Source of the DNA: Nucisporomicrobium flavum
GTDB taxonomy: Bacteria > Actinomycetota > Actinomycetes > Mycobacteriales > Micromonosporaceae
Assembly: GCF_016464385.1 (NCBI RefSeq)
Contig: NZ_JADMLH010000001.1
Span: 519,431 to 583,430 of the forward strand
Length of the DNA stretch: 64,000 nt
Direction of reading: 5' to 3'
Part shown: piece after piece, positions 41,610-58,002 of the stretch
Position numbering within the stretch: the stretch's first letter is position 1
Layout of the letters: each line of letters starts with the position of its first letter
The notes under the pieces: generated by a model
Database searches by the model: none
The model's input: the letters and a program-made list of their open reading frames with translations, nothing else
What the model was told of the DNA's origin: nothing
Made by a program: the position numbers and the translations under genes

Positions 41610-41626
41610 TGGACCTTCCGGCCCTG
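41610..41626 (+). promoter_or_regulatory. DosR-like box (variant) upstream of the Cys-rich protein
   Basis: TGGACCTTCCGGCCCTG lies 55 bases before the ATG at 41682. It carries one extra base relative to the other boxes. Confidence 0.45.
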
Positions 41627-41681
41627 CTGACCGCCCGGCGACCCGCCTAGCGTCGGGTGCGGACCGGCGGAAGGAGCCGAG

Positions 41682-42008
41682 ATGAGCATCCTGCGCAGCG
41701 CGTTGTGCGCGATGGGCCGGCACACCGGGCAGTGGTCGAACCCCGGCCCGCGGTGCGAGGCCGAACGGGTCTGCGACGAGTGCGGCCGGCGCGAGGAACG
41801 GACGCGGCACACGTGGGCGCCGTTCGCCTACGTCGCCCCCGCACGGTGCGAGCAGAGCCGGCGGTGCGAGCGGTGCGCCGCCACCGAGGCGAGAACGGTG
41901 CACGAGTGGGGGCCCTGGTTCTACTACGAGAACGAGATCACCACGCCGCAGATCCACACGTGCCGGCGGTGCCACGAGAGCGAGCGGACCGCGTACACGG
42001 TGCGCTGA
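41682..42008 (+). CDS. Small Cys-rich (zinc-ribbon-like) protein, 108 aa
   Basis: Family not recognised. Three CxxC knuckles (CDEC, CERC, CRRC) plus additional single Cys and His are spaced regularly, with a repeated pattern of CxxC, charged turn, then H-W/E-W-x-P/G-W/F. This suggests two or three zinc-binding units built by internal duplication. No signal peptide. ATG at 41682 with AAGGAG upstream. A DosR-like box precedes it, so it is a candidate member of the dormancy set. Confidence 0.75.
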   Translation: MSILRSALCAMGRHTGQWSNPGPRCEAERVCDECGRREERTRHTWAPFAYVAPARCEQSRRCERCAATEARTVHEWGPWFYYENEITTPQIHTCRRCHESERTAYTVR

Positions 42009-42104
42009 GCCGTCCCGGCCTCCACACCGTCTCCCCATCGGCTGCACACCGCGGCCACGCCCGCGAGCGACCGTGAGGGTGTCCGGTACGAGCAAGGAGG
42101 AGCC

Positions 42105-42785
42105 ATGAAGGGAATCAGCCACCGCGCGGCCACCGTCGTGGCGGCCGGCGTGCTCGGCGTGGGCGCGCTCGCGGCCGCGGCCCCGGCGCTGGCCGGCGCC
42201 GGCCCGTTCGCCACCCCGGGCCCGGCGAGCACCGCCCCCGGCCCCGGTCACATGGGATCCGGCATGGGCATGGGTTCGGGCAGGGGCATGGGATCCGGGT
42301 ACGGAATGGGTCGCGGCACCGCCACCTGCCCCGGGTTCGGCGTCCAGGCTGCGAAGGGCACGCTCACCGCGGCTCAGCAGACGACGCTGCAGTCGATGGC
42401 GCAGGAGGAGAAGCTCGCGCATGACCTGTACGCGACCTTCGCCGGCCGCCAGGGGACGGCACCCTTCGCCCACCTCGCCATGTCCGAGAACCACCACCTG
42501 ACCGCGGTCCGCACCCTGCTGCAGCGGTACGCCCTCACGGACCCGACCGCGGGCCGGCCCGCCGGCAGGTTCACCGATCCCGCCGTCCAGGCCGCGTACG
42601 ACCGGCTGCTGGCGCAGGGCGGCGCGAGCCCGGAGGCGGCCCGGACGGCCGGACGGCAGGTCGAACGCGACGACATCGCCGCGCTGAAGGCCGCCTCGGC
42701 GGGACTGACCGCGCCGGACGTCCAGCAGCTGTACACGATGCTGCTCTCGGCGTCCGAGCAGCATCTCGCCCTGCTCGGCGGCTGA
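42105..42785 (+). CDS. Secreted DUF2202 (ferritin-like) protein with Met/Gly-rich segment
   Basis: 226 aa: signal peptide to about residue 28, a segment of repeated GMG/GSG units (residues about 45-68), then a DUF2202 four-helix domain. Ferritin-like helices show EEKLAHDLY, MSENHHLTAV, ERDDIAAL and SASEQHLALL, suggesting a di-metal site. The Met-rich stretch may bind copper (inference). AGGAGGAG precedes the ATG. Confidence 0.85.
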   Translation: MKGISHRAATVVAAGVLGVGALAAAAPALAGAGPFATPGPASTAPGPGHMGSGMGMGSGRGMGSGYGMGRGTATCPGFGVQAAKGTLTAAQQTTLQSMAQEEKLAHDLYATFAGRQGTAPFAHLAMSENHHLTAVRTLLQRYALTDPTAGRPAGRFTDPAVQAAYDRLLAQGGASPEAARTAGRQVERDDIAALKAASAGLTAPDVQQLYTMLLSASEQHLALLGG

Positions 42786-42804
42786 CACCCCACCCCGGCG
42801 GGAC

Positions 42805-42820
42805 GGGACCTTCGCCCCTG
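42805..42820 (+). promoter_or_regulatory. DosR-like box upstream of USP/ABC operon
   Basis: GGGACCTTCGCCCCTG, 57 bases before the GTG at 42878. One of the best matches to the recurring consensus. Confidence 0.6.
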
Positions 42821-42877
42821 ACCCGGCCGCCGGGGCGAGCGGCACGGTGAGGGCAGGACCGACGGACGGAGGTCGCC

Positions 42878-43795
42878 GTGACACCCCTCGATCGGGCCGC
42901 GCACGCGGCACGGCACCCGCAGGGGACGGCCATGATCGGCTCGATCGCCGCCGGCGTCGGCGGTGCCGGTGGATGGCAGGCGCTGGCCTGGGCCGCCGAG
43001 GAGGCGGAACGGACCGGCGCCCGGCTCGTGCTGGTGCACGTGTGCCCGCCGGACTCGCCGCTGGGCCGGGCCGGGACCGAGCCGTCGGCGGCCGAGGTGG
43101 AGCTGGCGGACCCGGCCCTGGCCCACGCGTACGCCGGCATCCAGACCCGCCTCGGCGGGCACCGGACCGCCCTGCACCTCCACCGCGGCGACCCGGCGAC
43201 GGCGCTGGTCGGCGCGTCGGCGGACGCCCGGCTGCTCGCGATCGGCGCGGGCGGGACCGGCCGGACGGCCCGCCGGGTGCTGCGGCACGCCCACTGCCCC
43301 GTCGTCGTGATCCGCCCGCAGGCGCCGCCGGACCCGCGGGCGCCGCTCGCCGGGCACGTCGTCGTCGGGGTCGACGGCTCCCCCGCCGGCCGCACCGCCC
43401 TGGAGTTCGGGTTCGCTCAGGCCGACGAGCACCACGTCCCGCTGGCCGCCGTGCACGTGTCCGAGGCAAGCCACGACGACTACTTCTACGACGACGTGAC
43501 GCTGTCCACCCACTTCGCCGTCGAGCCGGCCGCGCTGGACCTGCTGGCCACCGAGACGGAACCGCTCGCCGCGGACCATCCCGCGGTGCCGGTACGGCGA
43601 GCCGTCCTGCACGGCACCGTGGCCGACGCATTGATCCGGGCCGGTTCGGGCGCCCGGCTCCTCGTCGTGGGCGACAAACGCCGCGGCGTGGTGGGGCGGG
43701 TCCGCACCGGCGACGTCCCGGGAGTCGTCGCGGCCGGGGCGCACTGCCCGGTCGCCGTCGTCCCGCTGCACCAGCTGGAGGGGGAGCCACGGTGA
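42878..43795 (+). CDS. Tandem-domain universal stress protein
   Basis: 305 aa with two USP folds (about 20-145 and 160-300). Both end in the beta5 region (CPVVVIRPQ; CPVAVVPLH). The first has an imperfect nucleotide loop (AIGAGGTGRTARRVLRHA); the second is VVGDKRRGVVGRV. Dormancy-type USPs bind ATP or act as stress signalling proteins. GTG start with GGAGG 6 bases upstream. Its stop overlaps the ABC ATPase start (GTGA), so the three genes to 46381 form one operon. Confidence 0.9.
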   Translation: MTPLDRAAHAARHPQGTAMIGSIAAGVGGAGGWQALAWAAEEAERTGARLVLVHVCPPDSPLGRAGTEPSAAEVELADPALAHAYAGIQTRLGGHRTALHLHRGDPATALVGASADARLLAIGAGGTGRTARRVLRHAHCPVVVIRPQAPPDPRAPLAGHVVVGVDGSPAGRTALEFGFAQADEHHVPLAAVHVSEASHDDYFYDDVTLSTHFAVEPAALDLLATETEPLAADHPAVPVRRAVLHGTVADALIRAGSGARLLVVGDKRRGVVGRVRTGDVPGVVAAGAHCPVAVVPLHQLEGEPR

Positions 43796-44709
43796 ACGCG
43801 CCGGCGATCACCGTCCGGGGCCTGGTCCGCGCGTACGGGCCCGTCCGCGCCGTCGACGGGCTGAGCTTCACGGTCGGCCGGGGCGAGATCTTCGCGCTGC
43901 TCGGCCCCAACGGCGCCGGGAAGACCACCACCGTGGAGATCCTCGAGGGCTACCGGGACCGCGACGGCGGCGACGTCTCGGTGCTCGGCTTCGACCCGGC
44001 CACCGGCGGTACGGCGTACCGGGAGCGGATCGGCATCGTGCTGCAGGCGGCCGGTTTCGAGGAGGAGTTCACCGTCCGCGAGCTGGTCCGCCTGCAGACC
44101 TCGCTGTACCCGCGGCGGCACGACCCGGACGAGCTCATCGACCTGGTCGAGCTCACCGACAAGCGCCACGTCCGCGTCAAGGCGCTCTCCGGCGGCCAGC
44201 GTCGCCGCCTCGACCTGGCGCTGGGCCTGGCCGGCGCGCCGGACCTGCTCTTCCTGGACGAGCCGACGACCGGCTTCGACCCCGCGGCGCGGCACCGGGC
44301 CTGGGAGCTCATCGAGCGGCTGCGCGGGCTGGGCACCACGATCCTGCTCACCACGCACTACCTGGAGGAGGCGCAACGCCTCGCCGACCGGGTCGCCGTG
44401 ATCGTCGCCGGCCGGCTGGTGGCGCTGAGCTCGCCGGAGGGCCTGCGGACCCGGGGCCGGCTGCCGACGGTGATCACGTTCGAGCTGCCGGCCGGCACGG
44501 ACCTCGCCGCGCTGCCGGGGCTGACCGGCACGGCCGAGGCCGACGGCGCGACGGTCCGGGTGCGAACGCATTCCCCGCTGGTCGACACGTGGCGGCTCAC
44601 CACGTGGGCCGTCGGCGCAGGCCTCGACCTGCCCGGCCTGGCCGTCGAGCCGCCGACGCTGGAGGACGCCTACCTCGCGCTGACCGGCGAGGCCCACGAT
44701 GGACGATGA
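43792..44709 (+). CDS. ABC-2 exporter ATPase (DrrA-like)
   Basis: 305 aa. Walker A GPNGAGKTT, signature LSGGQRRRLDLALGL, Walker B LLFLDEPTTGFD, H-loop LLTTHYLEEA, then a C-terminal DrrA-type domain. It drives the fused permease encoded immediately after (11-base overlap). The gene starts at the GTG overlapping the USP stop. Substrate unknown: drug, lipid or polysaccharide would be usual. Confidence 0.9.
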   Translation: MNAPAITVRGLVRAYGPVRAVDGLSFTVGRGEIFALLGPNGAGKTTTVEILEGYRDRDGGDVSVLGFDPATGGTAYRERIGIVLQAAGFEEEFTVRELVRLQTSLYPRRHDPDELIDLVELTDKRHVRVKALSGGQRRRLDLALGLAGAPDLLFLDEPTTGFDPAARHRAWELIERLRGLGTTILLTTHYLEEAQRLADRVAVIVAGRLVALSSPEGLRTRGRLPTVITFELPAGTDLAALPGLTGTAEADGATVRVRTHSPLVDTWRLTTWAVGAGLDLPGLAVEPPTLEDAYLALTGEAHDGR

Positions 44710-46381
44710 CCGGCCGGCCCGCCCGCGGCCCACGCTGACGCTGTCCCGGCACGCCGTACGGGCGTTCTTCCGCAACCCCATGGCGGCGTTCTTCACGCTG
44801 GCCTTCCCGCTGGTGTTCCTGGTGATCATCGGCTCGCTGGTGGGCGACGAGCGCACCCCGGAGGGCGTACGGGTGGTGCAGTTCCTCGTCGCCCCGTTCG
44901 CGGTGTTCGGCGTGGCCCAGGCGTCGTTCAGCGTGCTGGCCATCGACACGGCGATCCTGCGCGAGAGTGGCGTGCTGCTGCGCCTGCGCGGGGCGCCGGT
45001 GCCACGGTGGTCGGTGCTGGTGTCGCGGGTGGTGGCCTCGGTGGTCGCGTCGTTCGCGTCGTTCCTGCTCGTCGGCGCGGTCGGGGTGCTGGCCTTCGGC
45101 GTGACGCTGCAGTGGCGCACGCTGCCGGCGCTGGTGGTGACCCTGCTGGCCGGTACGGCGTGCCTGGCCGCGCTCGGCATGGCGCTGACGTCGGTCACCC
45201 GGACCGTGCTCGCCGCCCAGACGGCCGCGCAGGGCCTGCTCATCCCGCTGGCCTTCGTCTCCGACGTGTTCATCGTCGGCGCCGACCTGCCCGGCTGGCT
45301 GTCCGCGATCGGCACCGCCCTGCCGCTCAAGCACTTCGCCGACGCCGCCGCGGCCACCTTCGAGCCCGGCTCCGGGTACGCCTTCTCCCCCGGCCATCTC
45401 GCCGTCCTCGCGCTGTGGACGGTCGTGGGCGCGGCCGTGGCGGTGTGGCGCTTCGGGTGGAGTCCCCGCGGCTCGGGAGACGGCCGGAAAGGTCCGCCGC
45501 CGGCCGCTCCTGCTCCCGCGGAGGTCCTCCGGCAACCGTCCGCGGCCGCCACGACGGCTCGGCCCACCGCCGTGACGCTGCTGCTGGGGCAGACCCGCTT
45601 CGCGCTGCTCGGCATGCGCCGCGACGCCCTGGCCACCTTCTTCACGCTGGTGTTCCCGGCGCTGATCCTCGTGCTGTTCCCGGTCGTGTTCGGCAGCGCC
45701 CGGGTGCACGGGCTGACCATGGCGCAGTACCTCCTGCCCGGCATGATCGCGTACGCGGCCGCCCTCGCCGGCTACGTGAACCTCCCGGAGTCCGTGGCGG
45801 CGGCCCGTGCCGACGGCGTGCTCAAACGGCTCGGCGGCACCCCGCTGCCCGTGCGCTGGTACCTCGGCGGCCGGGTACTGTGCGCCCTGCTCATCGGGGT
45901 ACTGGGCGCCGTCGTGCTGAGCGTGGTGGCGGTCGTCGCGCAGGGTGTGCGGCTGGATCCCGTACGCCTGCCCGCCGTCCTGCTCGCCGTGGTCCTCGGC
46001 GGGGCCTGCTTCTGCGCGCTCGGCCTGGCCCTGGCCGCCGCGCTCCCCCGGCTGCGCTCGCTCACCGCGATCACGCTGGGCACGCTGCTGCCGCTGTGCT
46101 TCGTCTCGGAGATCTTCGTCGTCGGTGAGGCGCCCCTGCCCGGCTGGCTGCGGACCATCGGCGACGTCTTCCCGCTGCGGCATCTGATGCAGTCGCTGCT
46201 GACCGCGACGCGCCCGGACGGCGACGGGTCCGGTATCGCCTGGTCCCACCTGGCCGTGGTGGCCGTCTGGGCCGCGGCGGGTGCCGTCGTGACGGCCCGG
46301 CGGCGCGGTGCCTTCGCCGGCGCCGAGCACGCCGCGACGCCGACGCGCCCGCTGCGCATCGGCGTCGCCGTCCACCGCTGA
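44699..46381 (+). CDS. Fused double ABC-2 permease
   Basis: 560 aa. Two homologous ABC-2 membrane halves in one chain, about 10-255 and 290-540. Each begins with a similar amphipathic segment (AFFRNPMAAFFTLAFPLVF; LGMRRDALATFFTLVFPALI) and ends with SDVFIVGADLPGWL or SEIFVVGEAPLPGWL. A Pro/Ala linker joins them. One chain therefore forms a whole transporter channel with the DrrA-like ATPase. Most relatives encode the halves as separate genes or homodimers. Confidence 0.88.
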   Translation: MDDDRPARPRPTLTLSRHAVRAFFRNPMAAFFTLAFPLVFLVIIGSLVGDERTPEGVRVVQFLVAPFAVFGVAQASFSVLAIDTAILRESGVLLRLRGAPVPRWSVLVSRVVASVVASFASFLLVGAVGVLAFGVTLQWRTLPALVVTLLAGTACLAALGMALTSVTRTVLAAQTAAQGLLIPLAFVSDVFIVGADLPGWLSAIGTALPLKHFADAAAATFEPGSGYAFSPGHLAVLALWTVVGAAVAVWRFGWSPRGSGDGRKGPPPAAPAPAEVLRQPSAAATTARPTAVTLLLGQTRFALLGMRRDALATFFTLVFPALILVLFPVVFGSARVHGLTMAQYLLPGMIAYAAALAGYVNLPESVAAARADGVLKRLGGTPLPVRWYLGGRVLCALLIGVLGAVVLSVVAVVAQGVRLDPVRLPAVLLAVVLGGACFCALGLALAAALPRLRSLTAITLGTLLPLCFVSEIFVVGEAPLPGWLRTIGDVFPLRHLMQSLLTATRPDGDGSGIAWSHLAVVAVWAAAGAVVTARRRGAFAGAEHAATPTRPLRIGVAVHR

Positions 46382-46396
46382 CCGCGGCCCGGTCAG
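46378..46396. terminator. Short hairpin between convergent permease and nitroreductase genes
   Basis: CTGACC (46378-46383) pairs with GGTCAG (46391-46396) over both stop codons. Confidence 0.4.
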
Positions 46397-47379
46397 TCCG
46401 GCATCAGCACCTCGGACAGGTCGCGGCGGGGACTGGCGGGTGCCGGGCGGCCGTACCCGATCCGGACGACCATCTGGGCCCACAGGCCCTCGGCGCCGGC
46501 GGTGAGCCGCCGCCGCACGGCCGGCACCTCGACCGGCTGGCTGACCGGCGTGGTGGCCAGGTTCTGCCACGTCGCGGCGAGCAGCACCCGTTGCAGCGCC
46601 TGCCCGGCGGTCACCCAGTGCTGCCGGTCGTCGCCCGCCGTCGCCAGCACCAGGATCATCGGGTACGGCTCGAACGCCCCGGTCACCGGCGGCTGCTCCG
46701 GGAGCAGCCCGAAGTCGCGGGTGGGTACGGACTCCAGGGCGTCCCACGGCCCGACGGGCAGGTGCGGCGTCCCGTCGCGCCGGGCGTGCCGGGCGGAGCG
46801 GATCGTCGCGGCGCGGTAGCCGCCCCGGGCGCGCAGGCTGCGGTCAGCCGCCCGGGACAACGCGACGATCGCGTCCCGGGTCGCGGCGTCGGCGACGGAG
46901 AGCACCGCGTCCTCGCGTCCCGCGGCGTCGCGCAGCAGCTCCAGCGCCACCGCCGGTACGGGAACCTCCGTGAACGGCCCGCGGTTGCTGTGCCGATGAG
47001 CGATGGCATCGGCGAGCGCCACCACCGCCGGGCTCGGCTCGGCCGGGCGGCCGATCGCGATGCGGGCCACGAAGTTCTCGTCGTCCGGGTCGGGGAACAG
47101 GGTGCAGTGCGTCAGGAAACCCTCCCGCCGGATCGCCAGGCGCAGCGTGAAGAGCGCGGCGCCGACGCTGATGAACAGCTCCCGGCCGGCCGGGTCGAGC
47201 GCGTCCAGCCGCCGGCGGGGATCGGCGTGCACCTCCACGGCGTCCCCGGTGATCCGGAACAGCCAGGGCTGGCTGTTGTGCAGCGACGGCGCGCGGGTCG
47301 CCGAGCGGACGCACCCGCTCAGCGCGTCCGGCGGCAGCGTCCGCGGCGTTCCGGCGCCGCCGGTCCGCAGTGTGGTCAT
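46393..47379 (-). CDS. Acg-type nitroreductase-like FMN protein
   Basis: 328 aa, the size of Acg proteins of the mycobacterial DosR regulon, made of two tandem half-nitroreductase domains. The first half shows SATRAPSLHNSQPW; the middle HRHSNRGPFTE; the second half WVTAGQALQRVLLAAT. Acg relatives bind and may sequester FMN rather than act as ordinary nitroreductases. ATG at 47379 has AAGGAG upstream. It lies 34 bases downstream of the AMIN-like lipoprotein gene and probably shares its transcript. Confidence 0.88.
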   Translation of the reverse strand: MTTLRTGGAGTPRTLPPDALSGCVRSATRAPSLHNSQPWLFRITGDAVEVHADPRRRLDALDPAGRELFISVGAALFTLRLAIRREGFLTHCTLFPDPDDENFVARIAIGRPAEPSPAVVALADAIAHRHSNRGPFTEVPVPAVALELLRDAAGREDAVLSVADAATRDAIVALSRAADRSLRARGGYRAATIRSARHARRDGTPHLPVGPWDALESVPTRDFGLLPEQPPVTGAFEPYPMILVLATAGDDRQHWVTAGQALQRVLLAATWQNLATTPVSQPVEVPAVRRRLTAGAEGLWAQMVVRIGYGRPAPASPRRDLSEVLMPD

Positions 47380-47413
47380 CGCGGGTCTCCTTGTCGGTGA
47401 GCGCCGGCGCGGG

Positions 47414-48034: not shown

Positions 48035-48162
48035 CGCAGTGCCCTTCTCGCGGGAGGGGCATCGCCGTCGCCCCTCCCCCAGGCCCAGCGTGGGCGTCCC
48101 GGCCCGGGCGCGCCCAGAGGCACCCGGCCCTTCGCCGCGGGTCCAGCGGCGGCGGCCGGTCG

Positions 48163-48178
48163 CGGACCATCGCCCCTG
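48163..48178 (+). promoter_or_regulatory. DosR-like box between AMIN lipoprotein and USP
   Basis: CGGACCATCGCCCCTG, 63 bases before the USP ATG. A weaker GGCCCTTCGCCGCG lies at 48126-48139, on the side of the lipoprotein gene. Confidence 0.5.
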
Positions 48179-48241
48179 GGTGCCGGCCCCGCGGCGGACC
48201 ATGCTTGCTACACGGCCGCCGGCGGACAAGGACGGTGAGCG

Positions 48242-48841
48242 ATGGACACGTCTCCTGCCTCCCCGCCGGTCCGCGCCGGCGAGCTCGCCGCCGCGGTCCG
48301 CGACCTGCTGCGCACGCGCCGGCCGGACTGTGGCGGGCCGGTGATCGCGGGCGACGCCGTCCTGGTGCCCGGCCGCTCCCCCCGCTCGGCGGCGATCTCC
48401 GTCGTCGCGGCCCTCGACGACGACGCCAACCCGGGCCGGGTCCTGGGGTTCGCCGCCGTCGAGGCGGTCCGCCGCGGCGTACCGCTGCGGGCCGTGCACG
48501 TCTGCACGCGGCTCGGCCGGCCGTCCGAGCGTGCCCGCCGCCTCGGCCACGACCGGATGATGACCGATGCCGATCATCTGCTCTCCCAGGTGCTCTACGA
48601 CCACCTGCCGGCCGACCGGGCGGACGCCGCGGAGCGGGAGATCCTGTACGACGACGAACCCGTCCGCGCCCTGATCGACCTCAGCCGCACGTCCTCGCTG
48701 CTCGTGCTGGCGGCGCGCGGCTCCGGCGGCGCCGCAGCGATCGGTTCCACGGTGCGCGGCCTGATCGGCCGTACGTACTGCCCGCTCGTGGTGCTGACGC
48801 CCGCCGCTCCGGCCGCGCCCGGCGCCCCGCCCGGTTGGTGA
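48242..48841 (+). CDS. Divergent universal stress protein
   Basis: 199 aa with one USP-like fold. The N-terminal part (about 1-50) is unusual and the first strand lacks the normal VGVDGS motif (ISVVAALDDDANPG instead). The C-terminal half has LVLAARGSGGAAAIGSTVRGL and CPLVVLTP, so a GxxGx9GS/T-like loop survives. ATG with AAGGACGG upstream. A member of the dormancy set by family and by its upstream box. Confidence 0.8.
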   Translation: MDTSPASPPVRAGELAAAVRDLLRTRRPDCGGPVIAGDAVLVPGRSPRSAAISVVAALDDDANPGRVLGFAAVEAVRRGVPLRAVHVCTRLGRPSERARRLGHDRMMTDADHLLSQVLYDHLPADRADAAEREILYDDEPVRALIDLSRTSSLLVLAARGSGGAAAIGSTVRGLIGRTYCPLVVLTPAAPAAPGAPPGW

Positions 48842-48853: not shown

Positions 48854-48871
48854 GGGACTTTCGGCCCCTTG
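48854..48871 (+). promoter_or_regulatory. DosR-like box upstream of long hibernation factor
   Basis: GGGACTTTCGGCCCCTTG, 48 bases before the ATG at 48920. Closest match in the window to the mycobacterial primary DosR half-site GGGACTTT. Confidence 0.65.
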
Positions 48872-48919: not shown

Positions 48920-49720
48920 ATGCCAGGCTTCAGAACCGCCGTCGTGCCCGACGAGGACGTGGACATCCTGGTCCGCGGGCCGGTGACCACCCAGGACATC
49001 GCGTACGTGGGTCACGCCGTCGCCGGGGCGGGGCTGGCGGGCACCGGGGCCGGCCACCTGCGCTTCAAGCTGGCGGAGTACCGCGGCGGTGACCGCGGGA
49101 CCGTCGGAGTGGCGCAGCTCACCGTGGAGCTCGCCGGCCGGATGGTGCGCGGTCAGGCGTCCGCGGGCACGGTGGAGGCGGCGATCGACGGAGCCGTGGC
49201 GGCGCTCGTCCCGCGCATCGACCGGCTGGCGCAGCGCCTGACGCCCGCCGAGGCGGGGCCGCCGTCCTTCACCGGCGAAGCCTGGGACCTGCGGACGGCA
49301 CGAGCACTGCCGGCGGTCGTCCGGATCGGCGGGAAGGCGCGCCGCGTCGCCCGGCACAAGGCCTGTCCCCCGGCGGCGCAGACCCTCGGCGCCGCGGCGC
49401 TGACCATGGACCTGCGCGACTATGACTTCCACCTGTTCGCCGACGAGGCCAGCGGTCAGGACGCCGTCGTCACGCGGGCCGGCGCCGCCGGGTACAGGGT
49501 GGCCGCCGACCGGCCCGACCTGCTGGGCAGCGCGCCCGACGGCGTACCCGTCGCGGACGCACCCTCCCGCCTGCCCGGCCTCACCCTGCCGGAGGCGGCC
49601 CTTGCGCTGGACGCCTCGGCGGCCGCGTTCCTGGCCTTCACCGGCGTCGGCTCGGGCCGGGCCGCGGTGCTCTACCGGCGGTTCGACGGCCACCTCGGCC
49701 TGCTCAGTCCCCTGTGGTGA
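48920..49720 (+). CDS. hpf: Long ribosome hibernation promoting factor (S30AE/HPF) with duplicated C-terminal domain
   Basis: 266 aa. The N-terminal S30AE fold (about 10-110: HLRFKLAEYRGGDRGTVGVAQ) binds the 30S decoding centre. Two S30AE C-terminal dimerisation domains follow: LTMDLRDYDFHLFADEASGQ and LPEAALALDASAAAFLAFTG...VLYRRFDGHLGLLSP. The second keeps the YRR-DG-GL signature; the first is diverged. Homologous to the hypoxia-induced HPF of mycobacteria, which dimerises ribosomes in dormancy. ATG has AAGGGGG 8 bases upstream. Confidence 0.88.
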   Translation: MPGFRTAVVPDEDVDILVRGPVTTQDIAYVGHAVAGAGLAGTGAGHLRFKLAEYRGGDRGTVGVAQLTVELAGRMVRGQASAGTVEAAIDGAVAALVPRIDRLAQRLTPAEAGPPSFTGEAWDLRTARALPAVVRIGGKARRVARHKACPPAAQTLGAAALTMDLRDYDFHLFADEASGQDAVVTRAGAAGYRVAADRPDLLGSAPDGVPVADAPSRLPGLTLPEAALALDASAAAFLAFTGVGSGRAAVLYRRFDGHLGLLSPLW

Positions 49721-51161: not shown

Positions 51162-51177
51162 AGGACCTTTGCACCTG
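51162..51177 (+). promoter_or_regulatory. DosR-like box upstream of USP
   Basis: AGGACCTTTGCACCTG, 33 bases before the ATG at 51211; CAAAGG-A-CCTTTG here is a perfect short palindrome. Confidence 0.55.
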
Positions 51178-51210: not shown

Positions 51211-51714
51211 ATGGATCTCACATCTGTCCGGCGCGGGGCGACGGGCCCGGTCCTGGTCGGCGTGGACGGTCACGACCACGACGCCCGGGTCGTCACGACG
51301 GCCGGGGCCCACGCCGATCGGCTGGGCACCGGCCTGCAGGTCGTGCACGTGCTGGACGTGGCGGGCGAGCCGCTCCGGCCGGCCACGCTGCCCACCGTCG
51401 CCCTGCGCCGCAGCCACGAGCGCCGCCGCAAGCTCGACGACGCCCGGGCGGAACTGCGCGAGCGTCTGCAGACCTTCGTCACCGGCCTGACGGACGTCGA
51501 CCTGGCGAACGTCGATCTACGGACGACCGTCGGCGACCCGGCGACCGTGCTGCTCGCGATGTCCCGCCGGGCCTGCCTGCTCGTGCTCGGCACCCGTAGC
51601 GGACCGGCGCGCAGCCCGTTCCTGCTCGGCACGGTGTGCCAGGACGTGGCCGTCCACGCGAGCTGCCCGGTGCTGCTGGTCCCGTGGGCCAAGGACGGGG
51701 ACGAGCCGGGCTGA
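51211..51714 (+). CDS. Universal stress protein
   Basis: 167 aa, one USP fold: VLVGVDGHDHDARVV at the N terminus, LLVLGTRSGPARSPFLLGTVCQDVA as the nucleotide-loop region (imperfect), CPVLLVPW at the end. ATG at 51211 preceded by CTGGTGAC only. Follows the GAF gene on the same strand but has its own box. Confidence 0.88.
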   Translation: MDLTSVRRGATGPVLVGVDGHDHDARVVTTAGAHADRLGTGLQVVHVLDVAGEPLRPATLPTVALRRSHERRRKLDDARAELRERLQTFVTGLTDVDLANVDLRTTVGDPATVLLAMSRRACLLVLGTRSGPARSPFLLGTVCQDVAVHASCPVLLVPWAKDGDEPG

Positions 51715-51726
51715 CCGGTACGCCGC

Positions 51727-52014
51727 TCAGCCCGGCGGTGCGTCACCCGGCAGGCCGGGAAGCGGATGCCGGTCGGTGTCGCGCTCGGCGAGCCGGCGCA
51801 TGGCGTTGCGGTACTGCCGCGGCGTGATCTCATGGGCGATCACCTGCCGGACGAGGACGCCCTCCAGCGACTCCGCCGGCGCCGGCGGCTCGATCACCGC
51901 CGCCCGATCGCGCGCCTCGTCCGCATCGGTCGAGCGCTTCCAGTCCAGGATGGCCGCCCACGAGGAACCGACGACCAGCGCCGCCATCAGCGCCAGAACC
52001 AGGATCACCACCAT
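51727..52014 (-). CDS. Small membrane protein with SHOCT-like tail (copy 1)
   Basis: 95 aa: N-terminal membrane helix (VVILVLALMAALVVGSSWAA), charged linker, then LEGVLVRQVIAHEITPRQYRN...MRRLAERD, a helix pair resembling SHOCT domains. Paralog of the next gene on the same strand, 29 bases away, sharing the pattern LVxQxxAxEIxxxQYxxAMxxLAxRDxxRHPL. Role unknown; SHOCT segments usually mediate oligomerisation. GAGGAG precedes the ATG. Confidence 0.75.
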   Translation of the reverse strand: MVVILVLALMAALVVGSSWAAILDWKRSTDADEARDRAAVIEPPAPAESLEGVLVRQVIAHEITPRQYRNAMRRLAERDTDRHPLPGLPGDAPPG

Positions 52015-52043
52015 CGCCGTCTCCTCTCAGCGCCCGGCAGCGG

Positions 52044-52319
52044 TCAGGCGCCGGCGGCGGCCGGGCCGTTGTCGGGCGGTACGGCCAGCGGATGGCGCGC
52101 GTCGTCGCGGGCGGCAAGCTTCTCCATGGCGCGCACGTACTGCGGCCGGCTGATCTCCCCGGCCACGAGCTGCGTGACCAGCGCCCCTTCGAGGGTCACC
52201 GGCTCGCGTGCGGGTGTGGCGCCCGCGGTTCCCGCCTCCTCGGCGGCGTCGTCCCGTGGCCACACCGTGTACGCGCAGGCGCCCACCAGCGCCGCGGTCA
52301 ACGCCAGGATCAGGAGCAT
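52044..52319 (-). CDS. Small membrane protein with SHOCT-like tail (copy 2)
   Basis: 91 aa paralog of the preceding entry: membrane helix LLILALTAALVGACAYTVW, Ala/Glu linker, LEGALVTQLVAGEISRPQYV, AMEKLAARDDARHPL. First gene of the two-gene unit and preceded by a strong DosR-like box. ATG at 52319 chosen for GGAGGAGG upstream; a longer form adds 8 residues. Confidence 0.75.
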   Translation of the reverse strand: MLLILALTAALVGACAYTVWPRDDAAEEAGTAGATPAREPVTLEGALVTQLVAGEISRPQYVRAMEKLAARDDARHPLAVPPDNGPAAAGA

Positions 52320-52368
52320 GGCGGCCACCTCCTCCCCCTCCATGCTCTGCGGGCGCGCCGGAGGCGGG

Positions 52369-52384
52369 CAGGGTCCAAAGTCCC
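52369..52384 (-). promoter_or_regulatory. DosR-like box upstream of the SHOCT pair
   Basis: GGGACTTTGGACCCTG on the minus strand, 49 bases before the ATG at 52319. Confidence 0.6.
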
Positions 52385-52418
52385 GGTCCACGGTGGCCTC
52401 GTTCCCGCCGCCCACCAC

Positions 52419-52434
52419 AACGGACAAAGGTCCC
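52419..52434. promoter_or_regulatory. DosR-like box upstream of USP
   Basis: GGGACCTTTGTCCGTT on the minus strand; nearly symmetric, so it also reads CGGACAAAGGTCCCGG on the plus strand, 88 bases before the USP at 52523. Paired with the box at 52369 in a divergent promoter. Confidence 0.55.
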
Positions 52435-52522
52435 GGGCCCGCGGGCCCGCCTGCCCTACCCGCCGGCGGGCGCCCGGGGCCTGAATGAGAGTGCCGCAAT
52501 GGACCCACCGGAGGGAGCAGCC

Positions 52523-52996
52523 ATGAGCGCCACCCATCTCATCGTCGCCGGGGTCGACGGCTCCGAGGGAGGCCGTCGCGCCCTCGACTGGGCGGTCACC
52601 GAGGCGTCCGGGCGCGGCGGTGCCGTGCAGGCCGTCGTCGCCTGGTCCTGGGACGGCATGGAGTACGGCCCCATCGCCGCCACCAGCCCGCGGGAGGCCG
52701 CCGATCAGGCCGCCGCCCTGCTCGACCGCGAGGTCAAGGCGCTGGTCGCGCGGCACGGCTCACACGTGCCGGTCGCCGGCGAGATCATCGAGGGCCGGCC
52801 GGCCGACGTGCTGACCGCCGCCGCCCGTACGGCGAACCTGCTGGTGCTGGGCAGCCACGGGCACAGCCGCGTCCGGCACACCGTCCTGGGCTCGGTCAGC
52901 GAGGAGTGCATCCGCAAAGCCGTCTGCCCGGTCGTGGTGCTGCCCGTGCCGGTGGACCAGCCGGCGCCGTCGTCCGAGCCGGCCGTGCGCCGGTGA
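52523..52996 (+). CDS. Canonical ATP-binding universal stress protein
   Basis: 157 aa single-domain USP. VAGVDGSEGGRRALDWAV at the N terminus and the complete nucleotide motif LGSHGHSRVRHTVLGSVS (G-2x-G-9x-GS) near residue 115, then CPVVVLPV. This is the only one of the four USPs with an intact ATP loop. ATG at 52523 with GGAGGGAG upstream. DUF1918 follows after 47 bases and is probably co-transcribed. Confidence 0.92.
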   Translation: MSATHLIVAGVDGSEGGRRALDWAVTEASGRGGAVQAVVAWSWDGMEYGPIAATSPREAADQAAALLDREVKALVARHGSHVPVAGEIIEGRPADVLTAAARTANLLVLGSHGHSRVRHTVLGSVSEECIRKAVCPVVVLPVPVDQPAPSSEPAVRR

Positions 52997-53043
52997 GCCC
53001 GGAACCGTCCCCTGTCGCACAGAGCGAAGAGACCGGAGGAACC

Positions 53044-53235
53044 ATGAACGCCCACACCGGAGACCGGCTGGTCATGAAGGGCATCCACGTCGGCGACCCG
53101 CAGCGCGTCGGGCTCATCATCGGCGTGCCGCACCCGGACGGCAGCCCGCCGTACCAGGTGCGCTGGCTGGACAGCGATCACGAGGCGCTGGTGTTCCCCG
53201 GGCCGGAGGCGCACGTCGAGCACCGGTCGTCGTGA
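53044..53235 (+). CDS. DUF1918 protein
   Basis: 63 aa, the normal length. Signature GDRLVMKGIHVGDPQRVGLI, PPYQVRWLDSDHEALVFPGP. SH3-like small beta fold of unknown function, common beside actinobacterial stress genes. GGAGG precedes the ATG. Confidence 0.9.
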   Translation: MNAHTGDRLVMKGIHVGDPQRVGLIIGVPHPDGSPPYQVRWLDSDHEALVFPGPEAHVEHRSS

Positions 53236-53241
53236 CGCCGC

Positions 53242-53272
53242 CCGGGCACGCGGCCGTGGGTCGCGTGCCCGG
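53242..53272. terminator. Bidirectional terminator hairpin
   Basis: CCGGGCACGCG (53242-53252) and CGCGTGCCCGG (53262-53272): perfect 11-bp stem with a 9-base loop between convergent genes. Confidence 0.85.
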
Positions 53273-53280
53273 ACCCGGAC

Positions 53281-54810
53281 TCAGCGGCGGCTCCGTACGC
53301 GCGCCGCGCCGATGATCAGCAGAGCTCCCACCAGCACCAGCACCCCACCGAGAGCGGCTCGGACGCCGGCCGGCGTACCCGTGATCGGCAGGCCGCCACC
53401 CTGCCCGGAGTCGTCACCCGGCGCGGGCCGTACCGGCCACACCTCGATCCTGGCGGCGTCGTTGCCCGGCCGCGGGTCGTCGACGCCCCCGGCGGCGGTG
53501 ACCAGCCCGACGCTCGTCGTGTCGGAGCGCAGCCGTACGCGCAGCCCGACCGTGACCGTGGTCCCCGGATCGACCGTGACCATCGTCCCCGGATCGTTCG
53601 GGTCCTCGATGAAGCAGCGGTACCGCGGCAGCCCCGGCTCAATGCGCCCGAGGACGTCCCCGACGTAGCCGTAGCAGCCCGACGACACCACGTCCACGCC
53701 GGACGGGACGTCGACGGTCAGGCTCGCCCACGCCGGATCGTTCCAGCGCACCTCGTCGCCCGCGGGGCCGGACACCTGGGCGGGCCCGTGGTTGGTGAAC
53801 CGCAGGCTCATCGTGACGGTGTCGCCGGTACGGCCGCGGACGCGCCCCGCCCCGGCGCTCAGGTCGGCCGGGTTCGACGTCGTGTGCAGATAGAAGACGC
53901 CCCCGTTGTCGAGGTAGTCGGCGTCCGGGCTGTCGGCGAATGTGGTCGCCTGCCGGTCGAGCCTCAGCTCCGGCCCGCTCCCGGGCCGGGCATCGCCCGG
54001 ATCGAACGGCACACCGGCCGGCATCGGGTCGACCGTCCAGGCGACCTCCTGCCGACTCAACCCCGGCACCCAGGACGGCACGGACGCCGTCAGCGGGGTC
54101 GAGCGGCTCACCGCCGCGCGTTCACCGGGCGCCAGCCGGAACTCCGGGAACGGGCACTGCACCTGGTCGCCGCTGTAGTAGCAGTTGCGGTACCGGTCGC
54201 GCGCCGGTTGCTTCGACGGCAGGGTGGCCTGGAGCAGCACCCCGGACGCCGCATCATCGCCGACGTTGGCGAAGCGCGGGTACAGCGGCACGCGGCTGCC
54301 CGGCCGGACGCCCTCGAGGTGCTCGAAAGCGGCGGACATGTCAGGCCGCGGACCGGTCAGCGTGAACCCCTGCCGGTACCCGACGGGAACGGCGCCGTCA
54401 GCGGTGAGATCGACGTCGAACGTCACCTCCGTGCCGGGCTCGGCGCCGGGCGCGGGGGTGTACCGCAGCAGCAGGACGTTGCGGGTCCAATCCGGGCTGG
54501 CGATGTCCAGCGTGCAGGTGAGCACCGCCTCGTCCTGCGTGCAGCCGGGCGTCGGCTCGGCGGTGGTGATCCGCAGCCAGGGCGCGGCCGCGGTGGCGTC
54601 CAGCCGGAAGGTCGCCCGCGGTGGCGGGGTACCCGTCCGGACTCCGTACCTCGCGGCGAGCACCTTGCCCGCGGAAGCACCGGCCGGCATCCCCCGCGAG
54701 TACAGCTCCAGCTGCAGTTCCGGAACAGGACCGGCTTCCCGGGCGACCGCCACCCCGGGCGACACGCCGATGATTCCGGCCGCCACGGCGGCGAGCATCC
54801 GCCATCGCAT
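53281..54810 (-). CDS. LPxTG-anchored secreted surface protein
   Basis: 509 aa. Signal peptide to about residue 24 (GVAVA), beta-rich Ig/DUF11-like domains (ITTAEPTPGCTQDEAVLTC; VTMSLRFTNHGPAQVSGP; VTVGLRVRLRSD), then the sorting signal LPITGTPAG, a hydrophobic helix and RVRSRR. A sortase should link it to peptidoglycan; none is in the window. AAGGAGGT sits 6 bases before the ATG. Function unknown, probably structural or adhesive. Confidence 0.88.
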   Translation of the reverse strand: MRWRMLAAVAAGIIGVSPGVAVAREAGPVPELQLELYSRGMPAGASAGKVLAARYGVRTGTPPPRATFRLDATAAAPWLRITTAEPTPGCTQDEAVLTCTLDIASPDWTRNVLLLRYTPAPGAEPGTEVTFDVDLTADGAVPVGYRQGFTLTGPRPDMSAAFEHLEGVRPGSRVPLYPRFANVGDDAASGVLLQATLPSKQPARDRYRNCYYSGDQVQCPFPEFRLAPGERAAVSRSTPLTASVPSWVPGLSRQEVAWTVDPMPAGVPFDPGDARPGSGPELRLDRQATTFADSPDADYLDNGGVFYLHTTSNPADLSAGAGRVRGRTGDTVTMSLRFTNHGPAQVSGPAGDEVRWNDPAWASLTVDVPSGVDVVSSGCYGYVGDVLGRIEPGLPRYRCFIEDPNDPGTMVTVDPGTTVTVGLRVRLRSDTTSVGLVTAAGGVDDPRPGNDAARIEVWPVRPAPGDDSGQGGGLPITGTPAGVRAALGGVLVLVGALLIIGAARVRSRR

Positions 54811-54876
54811 ATCCGTACCTCCTTCACGGAAACGGCAAGGGCGGCGGGTACCGGCCCGCCGCCCTCGATTCCGGCG

Positions 54877-55271
54877 TCACTCGCCGGCCGTGACCTCGAT
54901 CCGGCGCCCCGACGACGCGGGCGCGGTCAACGGCACGATCACCTCGAGGATTCCCTTGCGGTACGTGGCCTTGATCCCCGCCTCGTCCGCGTTCGCCGGC
55001 AACCGCACGGAACGGTGCAGCATGCCGTACCGGAACTCGGAGCGGTTGAGGCCTTTCTCCTCCTCGCGGCGTTCCGCCTTGATGGTGAGCAGCCCGTGTG
55101 GGCCGTGATCTGCACGTCCTTGTCGGGCTCCAGTCCCGGCAGCTCGGCGCGCAGCACGTACTCCTTGTCGCTGACCTTGTCCTCGAACCGGATCGGGGGC
55201 ACGGGACGCGGGAAATCCATCTCGAACCAGTCGGTCATGTCACCGAACAGACGTGGCAGCAGCGCAGCCAT
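54877..55271 (-). pseudogene. hsp20: Hsp20/alpha-crystallin small heat shock protein, frameshifted
   Basis: Starts normally at ATG 55271 with GGAAGGAGG upstream (MAALLPRLFGDMTDWF...LRAELPGLEPDKDVQI). After TAHTG near 55100 the frame is lost. Removing the shift (reading CACAACGGG where CACACGGG is present) restores a normal alpha-crystallin domain: LLTIKAERREEEKG, SEFRYGMLHRSVRLP, KGILEVIVPL, ending at the TGA at 54877. Start and stop differ by one base in frame, and the restored protein is 131 aa. HspX-type chaperone if intact. The shift could be a true mutation or a sequencing error. Confidence 0.8.
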
Positions 55272-55334
55272 GTCCGGCCTCCTTCCCTTCTCTGTCCGTT
55301 GTCTCCATCGGACCTCGCCGGCGTGGGCGGCGGT

Positions 55335-55350
55335 CAGGGCCGAACGGCCC
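55335..55350 (-). promoter_or_regulatory. DosR-like box upstream of hsp20
   Basis: GGGCCGTTCGGCCCTG on the minus strand, 63 bases before the hsp20 ATG, in the gap after the phosphoribosyltransferase gene. Confidence 0.55.
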
Positions 55351-55354
55351 GCGG

Positions 55355-56032
55355 TCAGCCCCGGACCGCGCTGGGACGGGCCGCGGCGCGGGCGAGTACC
55401 GCAACGAGTTCTTCGTCGGAGACCGGCGGCAGATCCCGGTACGCCTGCCCGACGCTCACCAGCCCGTGCAGGCGGTACAGGCACACCACGCCGTCCGCCA
55501 CACCGGCCAGCAGGGCCGCGGCGCCCGGGCGGGCCACCGGCACCGCCACCACGATCCGCTCCGCGCCGCGTTCCCGGGCCGTCATGCAGGCCACCCGCGC
55601 CGTGGCGCCGGTCGCCATGCCGTCGTCGACGACGACGGCCGTACGCCCGACCAGCGGCTCGCACCAGCGGCTCTCGCGGAGCACGGCGGCGCTGTGCTGC
55701 ACCGCCACCCGCGCGGCCCGCTCTGCCCGGTGCAGCTCCTGCCAGGTCACGAGGTGCGTTTTGATCGTCTCGGTGTCCAGCGCCGTGATGTCGTCCTCGC
55801 TCACCGCGCCGGCGACCAGGCCGGGCCGTCCGGGCACGGTGACCCGCCGGACCACCACGACGTCGAGCGGCGCGCCCAGCAGGCGGGCGACCTCCGCCGC
55901 CACCGGTACGCCGCCGCGGGGCAGCCCGAGCACAACGACGTCGGGGCCGCGCAGGTACGACAGCACGCCGGCCATCTGACGGCCCGCCTCCGACCTGCTC
56001 GGGAACAGCGGACCCGCTGCAGTCATGGTCAT
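55355..56032 (-). CDS. Phosphoribosyltransferase-fold protein (Rv0571c-like)
   Basis: 225 aa. PRPP loop VVVDDGMATGATA near residue 130, N-terminal VLGLPRGGVPVAAEVA. This subgroup occurs in DosR regulons; its substrate base is not established. ATG at 56032 with GGAGG upstream. It lies upstream of hsp20 on the same strand. Confidence 0.88.
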   Translation of the reverse strand: MTMTAAGPLFPSRSEAGRQMAGVLSYLRGPDVVVLGLPRGGVPVAAEVARLLGAPLDVVVVRRVTVPGRPGLVAGAVSEDDITALDTETIKTHLVTWQELHRAERAARVAVQHSAAVLRESRWCEPLVGRTAVVVDDGMATGATARVACMTARERGAERIVVAVPVARPGAAALLAGVADGVVCLYRLHGLVSVGQAYRDLPPVSDEELVAVLARAAARPSAVRG

Positions 56033-56130
56033 GGCACACCTCCGCCGGGGTTCGCCGCGGAAGCGGCCTCCCCGTTCCAGCAGACGCGACCGGCGCCGCG
56101 CCGCGGAAGTGCCGCCCAGCCCACCCGGCC

Positions 56131-56146
56131 GGGACCGCCGCCCTCA
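56131..56146 (+). promoter_or_regulatory. Weak DosR-like box upstream of the phosphoribosyltransferase
   Basis: GGGACCGCCGCCCTCA, 99 bases before the start of the minus-strand gene and in the opposite orientation. Weak match. Confidence 0.3.
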
Positions 56147-56194
56147 CTCCGGCGTGGCGGATCCCCTCCCTGACGCAGCAGCACCGGCGATCGT

Positions 56195-56926
56195 TCACCC
56201 GGCGATCAGGAAGATGACTCCCGAGATGATCAGGCCGGCCTCCACGAGGGTCACGAACGCGCGGTCGCCGATGCGGCCGACGATCCTGCGCCCGGCCCAG
56301 GCACCGGCCAGGGTGGCCGGCGTCAGCGCCGCCCCGAGCAGCAGCACCCGGCCGGTCAGCAGGTTCCCCGCGCCGTAGGCGGCGATCTTCGCCAGGTGCA
56401 TCGTCAGCGCGGCGGCGGCCTCGGTGCCGATGAACGCCGCCCGGGTCAGCCCGTACGCCAGGAAGAAGGGCGCGGTCAGCGGCCCGACCGAGCCCAGCAG
56501 CGACGAGCCGAGCCCGGAGGCGGCGCCCACCGCGGCGAAGGTGCGATCGCCCGGCCTGCGCGGACGGGGGTTGAGCCGCCGCCAGATCACCACCCCGATC
56601 AGGAAGACGCCGAGCAGGCGGTGCAGCGCTCCCAGCGGCGCGTGGGCCAGCAGCAGCCCACCGGCCACGGCGAGCGGCACCGCGCCTGCCGCGAACCAGC
56701 CGATCAGCCGCCAGTGCAGCTCCGCGCGGTTGAGCCACACCCGGAACCCGTTGCTCGACACCTGCGTCAGGGTCAGCATCGGTACGGCCACCGGCAGCCC
56801 GAACAGCGCGGTGAACACGGGCAACAGCAGCACCCCGCCCCCGAAGCCGGCCACCGCGGACAGCAGCGCCAGCGCGAACGCCGCCAGCGACGCGAGCGCG
56901 AGCGTCGGCAGCTGGTGAACGATCAT
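56195..56926 (-). CDS. TauE/SafE-family anion exporter
   Basis: 243 aa with about eight hydrophobic helices in two repeats. The glycine-rich GFGGGVLLLPVF and GSSLLGSVGPLTAPF mark the two TauE/SafE halves. It probably exports sulfite, sulfoacetate or a similar anion. No sulfur genes adjoin. ATG with weak CAGGCTGG upstream. Confidence 0.85.
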   Translation of the reverse strand: MIVHQLPTLALASLAAFALALLSAVAGFGGGVLLLPVFTALFGLPVAVPMLTLTQVSSNGFRVWLNRAELHWRLIGWFAAGAVPLAVAGGLLLAHAPLGALHRLLGVFLIGVVIWRRLNPRPRRPGDRTFAAVGAASGLGSSLLGSVGPLTAPFFLAYGLTRAAFIGTEAAAALTMHLAKIAAYGAGNLLTGRVLLLGAALTPATLAGAWAGRRIVGRIGDRAFVTLVEAGLIISGVIFLIAG

Positions 56927-56956
56927 CCGGCCAGCCTGCCAGGACCGCGGACGCGA

Positions 56957-56985
56957 CGAGGGCCCGCCGGCACGGCAGGCCCTCG
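56957..56985 (-). terminator. Terminator hairpin after short hpf
   Basis: CGAGGGCC (56957-56964) pairs with GGCCCTCG (56978-56985), 13-base loop, 14 bases past the hpf stop. Confidence 0.65.
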
Positions 56986-56998
56986 ATCTTCGCTGCGG

Positions 56999-57346
56999 CT
57001 ACGGGAACGCCGGCTCCTCCAGCGGCGGAGCGGCCGGTCCCTGGTCCGGGCGCCGGCGGATCCGGCGCAGGCACGAGCGCAGCTTCTGCTGCATCAGATC
57101 GGTCGCCTCCTGCAGTCCGCTGCCCACGGCGTGCACGTGGACCGGTACGCCGTTGACGTCGACGTGGGCGTCGACCCGGTCGCCGTACGCCGCCGAGTCG
57201 AGAGTGAGCCACGACCGCAGCACCGGCGCCGGGGCGTGGTGCAGAGCGGCTTCGAGCTTCTCTACGGCGTACGTCCGCGCGGCCTCGTCAACGGGACCGT
57301 GGGTGCGGACGTTCGGGGCGGTGATGGTCGGGCTGATGCGCGCCAT
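56999..57346 (-). CDS. hpf: Short ribosome hibernation factor (HPF/YfiA-like, S30AE)
   Basis: 115 aa, S30AE fold only, without the dimerisation domain. Signatures: ITAPNVRTHGPVDEAARTYA, VEKLEAAL, LTLDSAAYGDRVDAHVDVNG, LQEATDLMQQKL, then a basic C terminus (LRRIRRRP). Likely binds the 30S subunit and stalls translation. Second S30AE protein in the window, after the long form at 48920. ATG at 57346 with GGGAGG upstream; a DosR-like box lies 77 bases upstream. Confidence 0.82.
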   Translation of the reverse strand: MARISPTITAPNVRTHGPVDEAARTYAVEKLEAALHHAPAPVLRSWLTLDSAAYGDRVDAHVDVNGVPVHVHAVGSGLQEATDLMQQKLRSCLRRIRRRPDQGPAAPPLEEPAFP

Positions 57347-57422
57347 GGCTTGCCTCCCGGATCCTGCCTTGCCCTCGTGCAAGGGACCTATGAAGATCGT
57401 CCGTCGCGCGAAGGGCACCGCA

Positions 57423-57438
57423 CAGGGTCGTTGGACCC
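57423..57438 (-). promoter_or_regulatory. DosR-like box upstream of short hpf
   Basis: GGGTCCAACGACCCTG on the minus strand, a nearly perfect inverted repeat (GGGTC...GACCC). Confidence 0.5.
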
Positions 57439-57456
57439 GGTCCGACAGTCCCGAAG

Positions 57457-57933
57457 CTACGGGCCCGCGTGCGGCGCGGGGTCGCAGCCGGCGGGCGGCA
57501 GGTGTGTCATCGCCCGGAACAGAGCGACGACTTGCACCACCAGCGCGATGATGCTGCCGGCGATGCCAACGGCGAGCACGACCCGCACGACTGTTCCCCA
57601 GGCGACCGCCGCGTCGGCGAAGTCGAACGGGAACACCTGCCACAGCCGGACCATGACAGCGATTCCGACGGCGGTGGTGGTGAGCGAGCCCAGCGCCACC
57701 ATCCACGGCGGGTCGTGGACGAACTGCAGGGCGTCGACGACGAGCCCGACGATCAGCGAGGCGTTGACGAGCCCCAGGACGAGGGTGGTGTCCGGGGTGA
57801 GGAACGCGACAGCGTCCCAGCCCGGGCGTACGTTGATCAGATAGAGCAGCACGACGTTGACGGCGGCGGCCACGGTGTAGCCGAAGCGGCGCGCGGCCGG
57901 CGCCGGACGACGCTTGCTGACGTCGGCGGACAT
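57457..57933 (-). CDS. Four-helix membrane protein of the dormancy cluster
   Basis: 158 aa with four hydrophobic helices (about 20-40, 46-65, 75-95, 112-135) and short loops. Family not named with confidence; similar small membrane proteins accompany actinobacterial stress clusters. ATG at 57933 with GGAGG upstream and a partial DosR-like box 51 bases upstream. Confidence 0.75.
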   Translation of the reverse strand: MSADVSKRRPAPAARRFGYTVAAAVNVVLLYLINVRPGWDAVAFLTPDTTLVLGLVNASLIVGLVVDALQFVHDPPWMVALGSLTTTAVGIAVMVRLWQVFPFDFADAAVAWGTVVRVVLAVGIAGSIIALVVQVVALFRAMTHLPPAGCDPAPHAGP

Positions 57934-57983
57934 GGCAGACCTCCTCGAGGCACCTCCCACGCTAGGCATCCGGACAGCCGGCC

Positions 57984-58002
57984 GGGTAGCGGCGAACGGC
58001 CC
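57984..58002 (-). promoter_or_regulatory. Partial DosR-like box upstream of membrane protein gene
   Basis: GGGCCGTTCGCCGCTACCC on the minus strand; the left half matches the box upstream of hsp20. Confidence 0.4.

Follow-up and report, generated by a model that had tools for sequence, protein, structure and literature searches.

A DevR-type box and its predicted hypoxia and dormancy regulon in Nucisporomicrobium flavum, with a kinase-less DevS-like protein

Which regulator reads the short palindromic box that recurs ahead of stress genes in the actinomycete Nucisporomicrobium flavum (Micromonosporaceae), and is this box more than a product of chance? The question is raised by a stretch of 64,000 nucleotides (contig NZ_JADMLH010000001.1, positions 519,431 to 583,430; hereafter the window), in which a 16-base element precedes genes coding universal stress proteins (USPs), two HPF proteins of ribosome hibernation and Hsp20. 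The original prediction listed seven strong and four weak copies of the element, likened them to the mycobacterial DosR site and placed their regulator outside the window. The box is likely, with a probability of roughly 0.88, the binding site of a DevR-type regulator encoded ~408 kb before the window, the genes behind it forming a predicted regulon of the DosR/OsdR type for hypoxia and dormancy. As read from the sequence, this is a well supported new case of a regulon type that is already known, whose new or variant part is a kinase-less predicted haem sensor.

All seven strong boxes were found where they had been predicted (Table 1), with a consensus of about GGGACCTTCGGCCCTG. A 16-column matrix was built from these seven sites and used at a threshold of 11 bits, with genes called by a codon-usage script; coordinates outside the window refer to C1, the 0.87 Mb contig of the 9.02 Mb genome (G000), on which the window occupies 519431-583430. 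In C1:431001-771000 outside the window, the matrix picked out 28 sites in promoter-intergenic DNA (21,047 bases), 10 in coding DNA (242,113 bases) and 1 in the remaining 12,840 bases (Fisher 4e-23, promoter versus coding). Sixty column-permuted matrices gave on average 2.4 promoter sites in the same stretch and never more than 6. Twenty background stretches (400 kb) held 3 sites in promoter DNA (31,649 bases) and 8 in coding DNA (342,027 bases). The same preference is seen in other genomes. A 140 kb region of genome G090, picked by its DevS genes and not by the box, has 15 sites in 10,045 promoter bases versus 2 in 126,728 coding bases (p 1e-15), and five further G090 stretches have 2 in 9,659 and 2 in 82,107, respectively. 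The corresponding counts are 6 in 10,535 versus 5 in 115,256 for contig C19 of genome G111 (p 1e-4) and 2 in 1,570 versus 1 in 18,077 for the devR locus of the latter genome (p 0.02). Over 121 genomes of the family the exact pattern has 189 matches, compared to 10 for a reversed-pattern control.

The surroundings of the box carry a second signal, which is independent of the matrix. Among 50 boxes of the N. flavum genome that have a gene start 30-130 bases ahead, 32 have a -10-like ANNNT element 31 or 32 bases past their centre (at both distances in one case). Offsets elsewhere, the box itself and 27-37 being left out, have it in 1.07 boxes on average and in 5 at most. The form TANNNT, also considered, is present in few boxes and was set aside; ANNNT fits instead. 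The element at 31/32 occurs in 30 of the 38 boxes in the written direction and in 2 of the 12 in the opposite one, and in 26 of the 40 boxes outside the window. When boxes of the own and related stretches are pooled, taking those that face a gene in the written direction, it accompanies 41/59 non-coding boxes versus 7/33 coding ones and none of five background promoter boxes. This fixed distance gives the box a direction, and boxes with a single gene nearby point toward that gene in 30 cases and away from it in 9. The spacing fits a position of the box over the -35 region, the DevR box of M. tuberculosis promoters overlapping or adjoining this region (PMC3029386).

A NarL/LuxR-type regulator had been postulated outside the window, and the same contig does code one, the 213-residue product of C1:110735-111376. 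This DevR orthologue matches M. tuberculosis DevR (3c3w) with 252.7 bits, followed by VraR with 149.3, and is composed of Pfam domains Response_reg (76.4 bits) and GerE (68.7 bits). Its stretch EKTVKNYVS, which belongs to the recognition helix whose residues serve DevR in contacting its site, is identical in the alignment to that of the M. tuberculosis protein. The stretch VLD.RLPDGNGI around the phospho-acceptor aspartate also aligns to 3c3w, the acceptor of M. tuberculosis DevR being Asp54 (PMC3029386). It is the sole close orthologue in the genome: the next protein by score is 45% identical and, among the matches listed, proteins other than DevR reach 47% identity or less. A full-length DevS with HisKA_3 and HATPase domains (Pfam) is coded beside devR. 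The divergent genes code a USP, the full-length DevS and two proteins that resemble nitroreductases, and a perfect box at C1:108035 lies ahead of them; of the latter two, the one compared with Pfam (gene at 107006) has no match at 1e-5. A third DevS-like GAF protein is encoded at C1:344850-346557 next to a response regulator that has 46% identity to DevR, possibly a second related two-component pair.

The devR promoters provide a test set foreign to the matrix, which was built without any of them. Thirty were compared, that of N. flavum and those of 29 relatives, the best-scoring of 100 DevR-bearing genomes. A box of at least 11 bits precedes devR in 28 of the 30, and in 26 its centre lies 41-43 bases ahead of the start, while 200 permuted matrices scored 0.59 promoters on average and 4 at the most. 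Exact boxes are found in 78 of the 100 genomes with DevR versus 4 of the 21 without (p 6e-7; one of the 21 by elimination). When read by eye, most rows of these promoters (L101, L180-L208) have a GGTAGNAA-like element ~13 bases before the start and the box at -42; the place of this element suggests that the devR mRNA may be leaderless.

Several results weigh against the assignment of the boxes to DevR, and they bear on two rival explanations. According to the first, GC-rich palindromes arise by chance in intergenic DNA, and the boxes are nothing more than these. The GC content of the window (73-76%) invites this view, and so does the pattern with at most one mismatch, which has 70 matches in the N. 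flavum genome against 59 for its reversed control. The exact pattern has 14 matches in the genome, and the 8 of them on C1, 0.87 of the 9.02 Mb, speak for the DevR reading. Since the one-mismatch pattern barely exceeds its control, weak sites are unreliable. From the four weak copies first proposed, 48163 (15.0 bits) was kept, whereas 41610 (8.7 bits), 57984 (8.3 bits) and 56131 (-1.4 bits) were dropped and may singly be due to chance. The contrast between island and background is also biased, because C1:431001-771000 was picked after pattern matches had been seen there; the contrast between promoter and coding DNA is less affected. Genome G090 has no exact pattern match, and 18 of the 50 own boxes, that of hsp20 included, lack ANNNT at 31/32. 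For the box set as a whole, however, chance is ruled out by the shuffled matrices (2.4 versus 28 promoter sites). The exact matches (189 versus 10), the fixed -10 distance, the orientation bias and the boxes in devR promoters likewise make this first explanation hardly credible.

The second explanation attributes the box to another NarL-family regulator, DevR being merely one of its targets. The genome has 82 GerE matches, and a search with DevR gives 53 places at E<=1e-10, its own among them; with so many NarL-family regulators, another one could share the box. A gene for an OmpR-type regulator is also preceded by a box. The boxes of the N. flavum devR promoter itself are weak (11.0-12.8 bits), two of the 30 devR promoters are exceptions (L208 without a box, L188 below threshold), and exact boxes also occur in four genomes that have no DevR match. 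This explanation is nevertheless very improbable in view of the single close DevR orthologue, of its recognition helix, which M. tuberculosis DevR has in identical form, of the co-occurrence of box and DevR over the 121 genomes, and of a consensus core equal to a site in the region bound by OsdR of Streptomyces coelicolor (PMC5069765).

If DevR is the regulator, the genes behind its boxes should tell what the regulon is for. Apart from the background stretches, 400 kb were examined (window included). Here 52 sites are flanked on one or both sides by a gene start at a distance of 15-160 bases, which gives 63 genes; the distance to the nearest gene peaks at 60-75 bases (17/52). Within the window the box centre lies 41-119 bases from the likely start, roughly the 30-100 bases first estimated and slightly wider. 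Pfam was run on 50 of the 63 proteins. In agreement with the gene families expected from the DosR regulon, the matches comprise USPs, CBS-BON and Rv2632c-like proteins, WS/DGAT, a nitroreductase and a molybdopterin oxidoreductase of 1219 residues, which we take to be NarG-like. Cytochrome bd I, phosphoketolase, pyruvate formate-lyase, GAPDH, enolase, hemerythrin, FeoA and GGDEF are found among the further families, and several proteins have no Pfam match. A second box-rich island at C47:165001-205000 holds hemerythrin, enolase, FeoA and phosphoribosyltransferase genes.

USP, nitroreductase, Hsp20, CBS, Rv2632c-like and WS/DGAT are families shared with the M. tuberculosis DosR regulon, those of the CBS and Rv2632c-like proteins presumably so. 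Heat shock proteins, triacylglycerol synthases, USPs and a nitroreductase are listed for that regulon (PMC10034137), and the DevR-DevS genes and the palindromic box are common to both systems, as is its position overlapping or adjoining the -35 region (PMC3029386). Boxes are found here also before two HPF genes, in the hydrogenase region and before the genes of cytochrome bd, pyruvate formate-lyase and phosphoketolase, a difference to be read with the fact that the mycobacterial regulon was not searched for each of them; the kinase-less DevS-like protein and the fixed distance from box to -10-like element are further differences. The box core is shared with the OsdR/OsdK system of S. coelicolor, where the predicted site CGGGACCTTCGGCCCT is situated between SCO5978 and SCO5979; OsdR bound this region in an electrophoretic mobility shift assay, and boxes cluster around many USP genes (PMC5069765). 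The consensus given there is AGGGCCGATCGGCCCT, differing from that of N. flavum, and the words hydrogenase, Hsp20 and ribosome are absent from the main text of that paper, as far as its available part goes.

In the mechanism suggested by these families, DevS would sense gas through haem and phosphorylate DevR. Phosphorylated DevR would bind the box over the -35 region and recruit RNA polymerase (class II activation), and DevR would also activate its own gene. The targets, among them USPs, HPFs, Hsp20, nitroreductases, cytochrome bd, pyruvate formate-lyase and WS/DGAT, would shift the cell to survival at low oxygen and to storage of ribosomes. The kinase-less DevS-like protein would bind gas without phosphorylating.

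Table 1. Predicted DevR-type boxes of the window and the genes associated with them (positions counted from the first letter of the window; ANNNT offsets in bases from the box centre; scores in bits, leave-one-out values in brackets)
Feature	Position	Strand	Score	Remarks
DevR-type box GGGACCTTCGCCCCTG	42805..42820	+	21.5 (19.9)	-10-like ANNNT at +32; ahead of USP start 42932, then ABC transporter genes
Tandem USP	42932..43795	+		sequence/Pfam
DevR-type box	48163..48178	+	15.0	ANNNT at +31; ahead of USP 48242; orthologous box in G111 (L145) GCGACCATCGGCCCTG
USP	48242..48841	+		sequence/Pfam
DevR-type box GGGACTTTCGGCCCCT	48854..48869	+	18.6 (14.2)	ANNNT at +32; ahead of long HPF; orthologous box in G111 GGGACCTTCGACCCCT
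Long HPF, ribosome hibernation factor	48920..49720	+	59.6	Pfam Ribosom_S30AE_C
Kinase-less DevS-like protein, 434 aa	49843..51147	+		two GAF domains and DHp remnant; haem His138 kept; phospho-His replaced by Arg; no ATPase domain
DevR-type box AGGACCTTTGCACCTG	51162..51177	+	20.3 (12.2)	ANNNT at +31; ahead of USP 51211; orthologous box in G111 GGGACCTTCGCACCTG
USP	51211..51714	+		sequence/Pfam
Small protein	52044..52319	-		downstream of two minus-strand boxes 52369, 52419
DevR-type box GGGACTTTGGACCCTG	52369..52384	-	21.8 (18.0)	minus-strand ANNNT at +31; likely target the small gene starting at 52319
DevR-type box GGGACCTTTGTCCGTT	52419..52434	-	20.6 (13.8)	minus-strand ANNNT at +33, none toward plus-strand USP
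USP	52523..52996	+		box 52419 lies 96 bases upstream and points away
hsp20, frame broken	54877..55271	-		N and C parts in different frames
DevR-type box GGGCCGTTCGGCCCTG	55335..55350	-	16.4 (11.7)	ahead of hsp20 (start 55271); no -10-like element at fixed distance
Short HPF-like protein	56999..57346	-	21.1	Pfam Ribosomal_S30AE, below cut-off 23.7
DevR-type box GGGTCCAACGACCCTG	57423..57438	-	15.9 (only 5.5)	ANNNT at +31; ahead of short HPF

By box direction, the predicted targets in the window are three USPs, the long HPF, the short HPF and hsp20. Judged by their minus-strand ANNNT elements, boxes 52369 and 52419 both face the small gene on the minus strand, which would then probably start at 52319. 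Assignment of box 52419 to the plus-strand USP at 52523, as first proposed, is consequently doubtful. The label SHOCT, given to the pair of small proteins placed behind box 52369, finds no support, neither protein matching any Pfam model. The broken frame of hsp20 is compatible with a mutation as well as with a sequencing error. A box near hydrogenase genes does exist (C1:584606); it is found 1.2 kb past the window end, between an operon coding a cNMP protein, the large subunit and hyp proteins and another coding a USP and the small subunit, and it points to the latter, away from the hyp genes that lie inside the window. A box of G111 (C19:26528) is placed between two genes in like manner. A scan of positions 41000-58500 with Rfam found no RNA family at gathering scores.

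The gene coding the kinase-less DevS-like protein starts 122 bases behind the long HPF gene, box 48854 being ahead of both, and may possibly have its own promoter in this gap. Its GAF-A domain matches that of DosS with 171 bits and keeps the haem histidine. The distal tyrosine and the glycine at the place of DosT Gly85 are invariant in the 52 sequences aligned (positions by own count), the roles of these residues being those described for the DosS/DosT sensors (PMC4082495). The structure model (mean pLDDT 83.3), in which GAF-A resembles DosS/DosT, agrees with the sequence in supporting a haem-type GAF-A, the haem itself being predicted. What differs from DosS/DosT is the carboxyl terminus. The phospho-acceptor position of DHp is occupied by arginine, Pfam detects no HATPase domain and the chain stops after DHp, so that by its sequence the protein is not a kinase.

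It is improbable that the protein is a decaying pseudogene outside the circuit. The loss of histidine and ATPase would agree with decay, as would the DHp remnant being the least constrained part (dN/dS 0.58) and a box preceding the gene, directly or across a single other gene, in only 5 of 11 cases from 10 genomes (the window, L145, L146, L150 and L153, the box of L150 pointing the other way); no such box precedes the kinase-less genes of L147, L148, L149, L151, L152 and L154. On the other side, the truncated architecture recurs among the nearest homologues. Of the 3,778 found at E<=1e-60, the 120 best were compared, the window protein included: 119 lack the ATPase tail, 119 keep the haem histidine and 115 lack the phospho-histidine, the other five keeping it yet having no ATPase. 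For the one pair compared (N. flavum and G111), dN/dS is 0.30 overall, 0.21 for GAF-A and 0.29 for GAF-B, and the synteny with HPF and USP is kept in G111. The nearest named relative of the protein in the genome collection, the single locus retrieved there, is from Pseudosporangium ferrugineum (Micromonosporaceae; 82% identity). Further named homologues come from Actinoplanes, Krasilnikovia, Dactylosporangium, Rhizocola and Planosporangium, presumably all members of this family. In a midpoint-rooted tree of DevS-like proteins, the kinase-less L153_13 is at the base of the full kinases, a position suggesting that loss of the kinase may have occurred repeatedly. Relatives of ~452 residues without the DHp histidine motif (L155-L158) form a separate group with other, conserved neighbourhoods, which have no intergenic boxes in the part shown. 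Literature searches retrieved no paper on a kinase-less DevS by title or start of abstract, and nothing related by title for DevR with Actinoplanes.

The kinase-less protein would most likely pair with DevS and tune its activity as a feedback, a role favoured because long C-terminal helices are retained in the place of DHp in the model. Alternatively, it may work without DevS and switch its neighbours (HPF or USP) in response to gas, or it may serve as a gas buffer. This option has appreciable weight while staying well under even odds. The gene lies between long HPF and USP in the window and in G111, and directly beside a USP gene in L147, L151 and L153, arrangements that speak for it; the C-terminal helices kept in the model and the HPF linkage, which is restricted to N. 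flavum and G111 among the 11 cases, speak against it. The broader proposal is tentative and held at a little less than an even chance: that Micromonosporaceae have a family of kinase-less DevS paralogues retained as haem sensors of O2 or NO in the DevR regulon, located here behind HPF and pairing with DevS (or HPF/USP), gas binding setting the depth of dormancy.

The results indicate that relatives of Actinoplanes have a dormancy circuit of the DosR type, known mainly from work on tuberculosis, in which box, regulator and core genes are similar. Because the -10-like element stands at a fixed distance, the box can be read directionally, and targets at divergent promoters become assignable. The presence of boxes before both HPF genes suggests that ribosome storage is placed under the dormancy circuit, and the kinase-less predicted haem sensors suggest that gas control has an additional level in this circuit.

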